Origin: Enterovibrio norvegicus DSM 15893 | GTDB taxonomy: Bacteria; Pseudomonadota; Gammaproteobacteria; Enterobacterales; Vibrionaceae | Direction: 5' to 3' | Assembly (NCBI RefSeq): GCF_900115495.1 | Contig: NZ_FOWR01000008.1 | Location: forward strand, 62,001 to 126,000 | DNA length: 64,000 bases | Shown here: piece after piece, positions 449-50,385 of the stretch | Numbering within the stretch: the first letter of the stretch is position 1 | Layout of the letters: each line of letters starts with the position of its first letter | Made by a program: the position numbers and the translations under genes | Notes under the pieces: model-generated | The model's database searches: none | Told to the model about the DNA's origin: nothing | The model's input: only the letters and a program-made list of their open reading frames with translations

Positions 449-466
449 AGATTGTTTCCCTAAAAA

Positions 467-509
467 ACCAAACAACCTGAAGAGGCTGGATTCAGCAAGT
501 TTGGGTATA
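467..509. repeat. Short copy of dispersed inverted-repeat element
   Basis: A 43-bp segment whose ends are complementary (CCAAAC at 468, GTTTGG at 499). It carries the core CTGAAGAGGCTGGATTCAGC, which closely matches one arm of the larger element at 49033-49217. It sits between the amidohydrolase stop and its terminator. Confidence 0.55.
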
Positions 510-515
510 AACACC

Positions 516-4524: not shown

Positions 4525-4566
4525 AGCCCTGCTCCGGCACGGTTATTGTGAACAAGAAAAAGCGCT

Positions 4567-4601
4567 CTGAGTCCTGCATTTTCAGGCTGCTGGGTATATT
4601 C
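4567..4601. repeat. Partial copy of dispersed inverted-repeat element
   Basis: CTGAGTCCTGCATTTTCAGG followed by CTGCTGGGTATATTC matches, with a few changes, the right arm of the element at 49033-49217. It lies in the adiA 5' leader/promoter region. No second arm was found nearby. Confidence 0.5.
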
Positions 4602-41720: not shown

Positions 41721-41895
41721 ACGCTCAAGCAGTTTGAAGATGCAGGATTCCGTGAGATTTACAACGATACGCAAAGGCTCTCTTTCAGACAGTGCTCTCA
41801 TCACTCAGCACTATTCGCCAAAAGCACACCGCTCTCATCGTTCGTAATCGCTACCGAAGCAAGGCCATCTCATTGTTTGGGCATATACCCGAGCC
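41721..41895. repeat. Degenerate copy of MITE-like inverted-repeat element
   Basis: The left arm TGAAGATGCAGGATTC (41735-41750) and the right end TTGTTTGGGCATATACCCGAGCC (41873-41895, given here as an interval) match the arms of the element at 49033-49217 in the same order and at nearly the same distance (about 175 versus 185-190 bp). The middle has diverged. It ends about 50 bp before the peroxidase start. Confidence 0.5.
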
Positions 41896-47552: not shown

Positions 47553-48938
<1,386 letters not shown>

Positions 48939-48975
48939 GCGATTGTTCTTTCTGCCACTTCGTGCAGAATGATTG

Positions 48976-49003
48976 AAGCCCGGTTCTGCCGGGCTTTTTA
49001 TTT
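48976..49003 (+). terminator. Terminator after purB
   Basis: AAGCCCGG, loop TTCTG, CCGGGCTTTTTATTT. Confidence 0.88.
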
Positions 49004-49032
49004 CTTTCGCGTCTCTGCATATTCACCATGCT

Positions 49033-49217
49033 TGGGTATGTACCCAATCAAGCTGAAGATGCTCGATTTCAGAGGGCCTCCCTTCGGGCGAGTTTACTGA
49101 CGCCATGCTCGGTGTTATCTCTTTTTGATGGAGATCACCACATCGGCAAAGGGACGCCTAGATCATAACGTCAGTAAACCTCGCTGAATCCTGCATCTTC
49201 AGGTTGTTTGGGTATAT
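49033..49217. mobile_element. MITE-like inverted-repeat element
   Basis: About 185 bp with long imperfect terminal inverted repeats. The left end reads TACCCAATCAAGCTGAAGAT (49041) through TTTACTGACG (49093-49102); the right end is its complement, from CGTCAGTAAACCTCGCTGAA (49169) through TCTTCAGGTTGTTTGGGTATATA. The arms agree at most positions except for a 16-bp GC-rich insertion in the left arm (around 49071-49086). The 66-bp centre has no ORF. The size, the arms, the lack of coding capacity and related copies elsewhere in the window suggest a non-autonomous element. No target-site duplication is certain. Confidence 0.65.
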
Positions 49218-49251
49218 ACTTGAGCCCATTCTTAGAAAACTGCACCCCCTT

Positions 49252-50385
49252 ATGTATCAATTAAATTTCGACCTAAACAGCTTCCTTTCTACGCATTGGC
49301 ATAGAAAGCCAACCATCATTCGCAATGGCTTCGTTGAATTTGATGATCCAATCACGCCAGATGAATTGGCGGGATTGGCGATGGAAGAAGAAATTGATTC
49401 TCGCTTCGTCACGAACCTGGATGGCAACTGGCAAGCCCAGCATGGCCCTTTCGAAAATTTCGACGACTTCCCTGACACCCACTCTCAACTGGTTATTCAA
49501 GCGGCAAACCACTGGCACCCAGGGTTACGCGAATTGGCAGAACCCTTCCGTGTTCTACCAAATTGGTTGTTTGATGATGTGATGATCTGCCTATCTATGC
49601 CAAATGGCGGCGTAGGCCCACATATCGACCAATACGATGTGTTTATCATTCAAGGGATGGGTAAACGTCGTTGGCGCGTGGGTGACAAAGGCGATTACAA
49701 AGACGCTAACCACCACACGGGCTTGCGTCAAATTGAAGGCTTTGATCCGATCATTGATGAAGTACTCGAGCCGGGCGATATTTTGTATATCCCACCAGGT
49801 TTCCCGCATGAAGGGAACACCATCGATGTGTCGATGAGCTACTCTATTGGTTACCGTTCTCCGAAGAAGCTAGAACTACTGAGCGGCTTTGCAGACTACG
49901 TGCTGACGAATGAGTTGGGTGACATTCACTACTACGATCCCAACCTGCAAACCCGTGAAGAACACGGTATGATCCCAACCGCTGAGTTTGACGCGCTGAA
50001 CAACATGCTGATGAAGTTGTTGAACGATCCGAAAGCGAAATCACGCTGGATGGGCGAGCAACTAAGCCAGTCACGCCATGAGTTAGACATCATGCCAGCA
50101 GAGCCGCCATGGGCAGCGGATGAGCTTTTCCAATTCATGGAAGAAAACTTGGTACTGGAGAAAGTCTCTGGCCTAAAAGCGCTTTACCACGAAGACGACC
50201 TGTCGGTGATTTTCCTGAACGGTGAATCGATCGAACTGCCTGAAGGTTGTGAAGCTGCGGCGCGTGTGTTGTGTGACCAAGAAGCCTTTACCGGTGAAGA
50301 TTTAGGCCCGATTGCCAACAACCCTGCATTGCTTGCATTGTTGCTTGAACTTTGCAACCAAGGTTATTGGTATCCGCAGGCTTAA
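49252..50385 (+). CDS. roxA: Ribosomal protein uL16 3-arginine hydroxylase (RoxA/YcfD)
   Basis: 377 residues (E. coli 373). JmjC-type Fe(II)/2-oxoglutarate dioxygenase of the cytoplasm that hydroxylates an Arg of ribosomal protein L16. Iron ligands are His124 and Asp126 (GPHIDQYDVF) and His186 (PPGFPHEGN), nearly the E. coli numbering. The C-terminal winged-helix region follows. The ATG at 49252 (MYQLNFDLN) is used; an in-frame start 16 codons upstream lies within the edge of the inverted-repeat element and adds unrelated residues. The promoter may lie in or beside that element. Confidence 0.95.
   Translation: MYQLNFDLNSFLSTHWHRKPTIIRNGFVEFDDPITPDELAGLAMEEEIDSRFVTNLDGNWQAQHGPFENFDDFPDTHSQLVIQAANHWHPGLRELAEPFRVLPNWLFDDVMICLSMPNGGVGPHIDQYDVFIIQGMGKRRWRVGDKGDYKDANHHTGLRQIEGFDPIIDEVLEPGDILYIPPGFPHEGNTIDVSMSYSIGYRSPKKLELLSGFADYVLTNELGDIHYYDPNLQTREEHGMIPTAEFDALNNMLMKLLNDPKAKSRWMGEQLSQSRHELDIMPAEPPWAADELFQFMEENLVLEKVSGLKALYHEDDLSVIFLNGESIELPEGCEAAARVLCDQEAFTGEDLGPIANNPALLALLLELCNQGYWYPQA

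Follow-up and report, generated by a model that had tools for sequence, protein, structure and literature searches.

The window analysed here, a stretch of 64,000 nucleotides from the draft genome of Enterovibrio norvegicus DSM 15893 (5.45 Mb, 99 contigs), carries a palindromic repeat between purB and a roxA-like gene, both on the + strand (Table 1). A search with the pattern of the family ends placed this copy at C26:111039-111216 in contig coordinates, and its outer TA reads TG at the left end. The ATG of the roxA-like gene (49252) lies 35 nt past the copy, and an in-frame TTG start at 49204, inside the copy, is also open. A simple scan detected no sigma-70-like promoter in 48930-49300 and placed a weaker terminator-like site at 49098-49117, within the second hairpin of the repeat.

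Table 1. Features at the purB-roxA locus and related remnants elsewhere in the window (window coordinates).
Feature	Position	Strand	Description
purB, adenylosuccinate lyase	47568..48938	+	flanking gene
Terminator-like hairpin	48975..48997	+	3' of purB, upstream of the MITE copy
MITE copy	49039..49216	+	178 bp, one TA counted per end; hairpin A deleted
Left terminal inverted repeat	49039..49062	+	TGTACCC..GATGC; second base altered from TATACCC
Scar GAGG	49072..49075	+	short direct repeat where the 88-bp hairpin A went; alignment to the G005 orthologue L198
Linker joining hairpins A and B	49076..49087	+	includes CCCTTCGGG if the next base is added
Hairpin B	49088..49184	+	closed by GCGAG/CTCGC
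Right terminal inverted repeat	49193..49216	-	family end pattern matched exactly
roxA-like gene	49252..50385	+	JmjC_2 and ROXA-like winged helix
Family remnant	465..512		nhmmer with the family alignment, E 1.8e-5
Family remnant	4539..4598	-	nhmmer with the family alignment, E 0.0017
Family remnant	41723..41805	-	nhmmer with the family alignment, E 7.7e-5

The imperfect inverted termini described in the first-pass annotation of this DNA are real. Arms of 33 nt (49036-49068 and 49187-49219, 85%) are accompanied by a second pair of 19 nt (49092-49110 and 49161-49179, 84%), and folding of the region as single-stranded DNA gave -47.7 kcal/mol, as compared with -23.5 +/- 3.1 in 200 shuffles (z -7.83, none of the 200 as low). 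At least three further related stretches had also been reported in the window; the family alignment located three, all of them remnants. They were said to be always intergenic, which holds within the window, where none of them is covered by a listed ORF of at least 90 aa.

The intact form of this repeat is a MITE of around 266 bp, composed of 24-bp inverted ends, two hairpins and a short linker. Among 79 full-length copies, gathered by similarity to one own copy among the loci then available, 64 have a TATA-to-TATA length of exactly 266 bp; L119 and L137, the two shortest, are truncated by the limits of their loci. Both ends are also present in 18 of 20 further divergent or partial loci, the exceptions being L172 and L173; 15 of these 18 fall at 263-267 bp and L087 at 273 bp, while alternative end pairs exist in L089 (263 or 288 bp) and L171 (254 or 277 bp). 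The layout is constant: a 24-bp end, hairpin A (~80 nt), the linker CTCCC-nnn-GGGCGAG, hairpin B and the second 24-bp end.

The copy upstream of the roxA-like gene is a deletion derivative of this form, in which the 88 bp of hairpin A are gone between two GAGG repeats. At the same site the sister genome G005 has a full 266-bp element (L198), with 150-base flanks that are 95% and 92% identical. The first-pass annotation had missed both the intact two-hairpin form and the deletion: what it described as a 16-bp GC-rich insertion in the left arm is, by comparison with L198, the linker remaining after the 88-bp deletion, and the 66-bp stretch it regarded as a centre itself belongs to a hairpin. Loss of the same hairpin was found at the window site in a third species (G011, L181), with another junction, and at two other places, where hairpin A is absent from L143 and L139 and present in L100 and L097, respectively. 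These last two losses did not take place at the GAGG repeat of the window copy, given that the junctions differ, that of L139 being an AATGCG repeat; a comparison of L121 with the window turned out to reflect an unrelated indel. Smaller forms of 60 bp (L117) and 47 bp (L186) occupy sites where the own copies (L062 and L032) are full, so that some of the small forms, at least, originate in situ; the sites of the mini copies L041, L051 and L056 are empty in relatives. The window copy was inserted upstream of roxA before the three related species separated, and hairpin A was lost afterwards between the GAGG repeats, an event for which replication slippage across the hairpin would be the simplest route. 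In-place hairpin trimming of palindromic repeats offers a possible explanation for the existence of 47-60 and 175-178 bp forms beside the full one.

The sequence is not single-copy, nor are its arms without other loci: BLASTN (E<=10) returned 83 rows from the own genome, 62 of which merge into 40 places, and the other 21 rows fall in or beside these same places. The 24-base end pattern had 99 matches in the own genome at up to three mismatches and none with the reversed control. For most own copies (24 of 29), any overlap with an ORF of at least 100 aa is limited to 20 bp; four others meet an ORF along a single edge, and the mini copy L041 lies within a 303-base frame. Beyond this strain, relatives of the window element were found in Vibrionaceae and one Pseudoalteromonas. 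The full element was detected at E<=1e-10 in at least 23 of 149 genomes (the own one, counted among the 23, plus relatives), absences in this search being soft because scoring was limited to about five candidates, at most, in each genome. At least one end-like site (up to two mismatches) was present in 239 of 296 Vibrionaceae genomes, reaching 408 sites in one of them, with no matches of the reversed control in any; this count takes in the ends of IS630 elements and may take in ERIC-like repeats as well. In named genomes, the exact 21-base linker was found in Grimontia and Enterovibrio only (64 stretches; own-genome records may be missing), and the family is present on named replicons of Vibrio campbellii, V. 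tritonius, V. casei, Photobacterium and Pseudoalteromonas shioyasakiensis. Copies in other genera are 67-73% identical to the own-genome element. A search of a phage collection with one query returned no match at E<=1e-5. On a V. tritonius plasmid, small "hypothetical protein" genes are annotated within MITE copies (L166, 1521-1688; L167, 1520-1687), which probably represent spurious annotation of repeat DNA.

The target site could be read from related genomes and from interrupted genes, and both point to TA. Eleven alignments at orthologous sites were examined, five of which, at four loci (L041, L043, L051 and L056), correspond to empty sites of the length expected for one TA. The dinucleotide is unchanged at the empty sites for L043 and L051 and one base off in the relative for L041 and in one relative for L056, while in the second L056 relative (L177) the site is too diverged for TA to be read. 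Two further candidates (L055/L174 and L059/L183) turned out to be remnants and were left uncounted; the remaining alignments comprise a mini form in place (L032), a mini copy shared by both genomes (L057) and two that concern the window copy. When the flanks of 28 own copies were joined with one TA, five frames of more than 150 codons spanned the joint, a test in which this single joining rule was applied without an alternative rule as control. We take two of the five to be interrupted genes, the frame closing once the element and one TA are removed: a glutathione S-transferase-like gene at C6:319.5 kb (L060), with one half matching GST_N and the other GST_C, and an AAA ATPase-like gene at C50:62.7 kb (L066), each half of which matches AAA ATPase models on its own. 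The frames at L037, L043 and L069 were judged by reading not to be interrupted genes. Both interrupting copies are full-length, and the intergenic placement seen in the window does not extend to the whole genome, as these two are among the 28 own copies tested.

A TA target indicates the IS630/Tc1 group, and elements of this kind with matching ends were found in relatives. Six of ten genomes searched contain PF13358, which is absent from G005, G011, G016 and the own genome. In G084 (6.4 Mb) there are two groups of elements of ~1.1 kb with MITE-type ends, and one of their transposases, used as query, identified homologues at E<=1e-30 in 60 of the 296 Vibrionaceae genomes, among them an intact one in G007, which belongs to the genus of the window genome; the own genome gave no homologue at this threshold. 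These transposases match NF033545, the NCBIfam model for the IS630 family transposase, with 245.8 and 251.6 bits (the latter in G007), the cut-off being 100. The IS630 elements carry the ends TATACCCGTGATCATTGAAGATGC and TATACCCAATCAACTTGAAGATGCAG, and the element of G007 has TATACCCGTGATCATTGAAGATGC and TATACCCATTCAACTTGAAGATGCAGGATTGAGC, the second being its right end. The right end of the window copy agrees with the G007 right end at 30 of 34 positions and with the other end at 20 of 34; for the window left end, agreement with the G007 right end is 24 of 34, which does not exceed the 25 of 34 that the best match at any other place in the window attains. With profiles of 23 left and 28 right IS ends (the transposase motif being recognisable in 28 of the 29 loci), both ends of all 29 family members scored nearer to the right than to the left IS630 end. 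Vibrionaceae IS630-family elements (the L204, L228 and L248-L276 groups) thus have the same terminal bases and TA target as the MITE, and differ from it in their size of ~1.1 kb and in encoding a DDE_3 transposase, whose open frame is 355-358 in many intact elements. Their interior has nothing in common with the MITE: among the rows listed, similarity is confined to the terminal 36 bp, with the exception of one row of 62 bp (L165).

Dispersed short non-coding copies, terminal inverted repeats, duplication of a TA target seen at single-TA empty sites and ends matching those of autonomous IS630-family elements in relatives make this a MITE family, and the initial proposal of a non-autonomous transposable palindrome is borne out. 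The best explanation, to which we assign a probability of roughly 0.85, is that the family was moved in trans by an IS630-type transposase, because its ends match the IS630 right end in relatives; the enzyme would bind the MITE ends. The transposase with matching ends that had been suggested as a check exists in relatives, and none was found in the own genome. The failure to match PF13358 or the G084 homologue there means that the mover is not resident now or is missing from the draft assembly, and the lack of an autonomous partner weakens the link between IS630 and the MITE, even if such a partner is not required of a MITE. The own genome also yielded no long autonomous element bounded by these ends: a single +/- pair lies 0.4-4 kb apart (C38:69876 and 72500), but it borrows one end from a 264-bp copy, and a 375-bp pair on C60 likewise borrows an end from a MITE copy. 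Inspection by eye of the matches listed for G016, a 3-contig genome of the same genus, revealed no long autonomous copy either. Across the 296 Vibrionaceae, genomes with many ends (10 or more) and this IS630 group coincide in 29 cases, with 73 having ends only, 31 the IS only and 163 neither, a weak association (odds ratio 2.1, p 0.015, uncorrected for relatedness).

A mobile element of the single-strand type, IS200/IS605 or REP/RAYT, would share the abundance of hairpins and the location mostly outside genes; inverted ends on both sides, the TA target and ends in common with DDE IS630 elements make this very improbable. Movement by an IS630-type transposase remains our preferred reading, and concrete enzymes, including an intact one from this genus, can now be named for testing the mobility of such repeats. 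Other IS630-like sequences were observed along the way. G021 and G084 harbor a second group (L205 and L231) with TATACCA-type ends, a 208-codon open frame and many copies, which was set aside because its ends differ, and two genomes of the same genus as the window (G004 and G012, 2.1-2.6 Mb) contain several pieces of IS630 transposases, mostly with stop codons.

The hairpins show extensive covariation. A consensus fold of 22 sequences has 74 pairs, 53 of which changed on both sides, and 92.4% of cells pair, as opposed to 74.3% in shuffles and 32-43% with slid partners; these figures come from related rows and from a fold built on that very alignment, which works in its favour. In a strand-symmetric fold of 23 rows, 64 of 97 pairs covary. 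Strong covariation and constant length, together with the position of the window copy between two genes on the same strand, could be those of a mobile structured RNA gene or a cis-regulatory RNA kept for the action of its transcript. We regard this as improbable, since there is no Rfam match at the gathering score (Rfam 15), hairpins have been lost in place repeatedly, the simple scan showed no sigma-70-like promoter and the mismatches do not favour an RNA: in the strand-symmetric fold, G-T mismatches are as common as A-C mismatches (113 to 118; 28:44 in the ends), and hairpins A (63:23) and B (22:51) lean in opposite ways, so that neither strand is singled out. With G-T pairs permitted, folding gave 132:39 on the given strand and 86:39 on the other, a procedure that favours G-T by design.

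The main uncertainty is whether the covariation results from selection on the fold or from arm-to-arm correction of the palindrome during replication, an explanation that competes with selection, not with the MITE itself. One copy points to correction, which is why covariation is no proof of selection: in L171, on a Photobacterium damselae plasmid (about 1371-1647), hairpin A is a perfect 37-bp inverted repeat whose internal loop has been erased, the next longest perfect repeat among the 29 members being 25 bp. Columns with at least 90% conservation are not significantly more frequent among unpaired positions (23/65) than among paired ones (44/142; p 0.53), and this, like the absence of an overall strand preference, is in line with correction. 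On the other hand, non-pairing internal loops are kept at the same places in most aligned copies, even though those of other genera are only 67-73% identical to the own-genome element, and plain correction would erase them, so we give correction slightly less than an even chance. Selection on the folded DNA itself, as a length-locked two-hairpin branched structure acting in transposition, seems unlikely to us. If it did operate, compensatory changes without overall strand preference would keep the fold across Vibrionaceae and into Pseudoalteromonadaceae, single strands extruded at the replication fork, for example, might recruit an IS630-type transposase to two "right" ends, and loss of a hairpin would ground the copy.

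The kind of repeat is known, given that a link between ERIC and IS630 has been published: according to PMC6267812, MITEPlu5, a relative of ERIC, is similar to CCC-type IS630 elements. ERIC and MITEPlu5 share with the 266-bp family TATACCC-type ends, a TA target, a long palindrome, high copy number and IS630-like ends (PMC6267812), and differ from it in their length of about 123-127 bp, their one hairpin and a core that cannot be aligned beyond chance. We therefore considered whether the family might simply be the Vibrionaceae version of this enterobacterial repeat. ERIC-like elements of other gammaproteobacteria have a near-identical left end (L237, TATACCCAAACAACGTGAAGTTG), relatives of ERIC use TA (PMC6267812 and PMC2229807) and ERIC has been reported from Vibrionaceae (PMC10969869 and PMC2267715); something ERIC-like was present in 19 of 120 relatives. 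Nevertheless, such an identity has a low probability. The ends and the TA agree, whereas a conserved core of ~127 bp with one hairpin is not what the 266-bp, two-hairpin element has. Its interior could not be aligned with E. coli ERIC (L234) beyond chance (the highest local score was 26 across 29 members on either strand, compared with a mean of 22.5 and a maximum of 29 in 100 best-of-29 shuffles), and a search of the own genome with this ERIC returned nothing at E<=1e-3. One end of E. coli ERIC is nearer to the IS630 left end and the other is undecided, while both ends of the 266-bp family are right-end-like; this does not separate the families, because in the ERIC-like L236 and L237, too, each end is nearer to the right end of IS630, a feature that other ERIC-like copies do not show. 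RUP, with IS630-Spn1 of Streptococcus pneumoniae, is likewise non-autonomous, with a TA target and an IS630 transposase proposed to act in trans, and differs in its 107 bp and its streptococcal host; the likeness is by the description in PMC2229807. The part that we did not find described, among open-licence papers, is the 266-bp two-hairpin family, with which the ERIC type of repeat gains a second, structurally different relative having the same class of ends. With five candidates scored in each, two genomes of the same genus (G002 and G014; 3.6-3.7 Mb in 330-370 contigs) showed no 266-bp element at E<=1e-10; they contain ERIC-like repeats together with 257 and 307 end-like sites, perhaps belonging to a different MITE family that uses the same ends.
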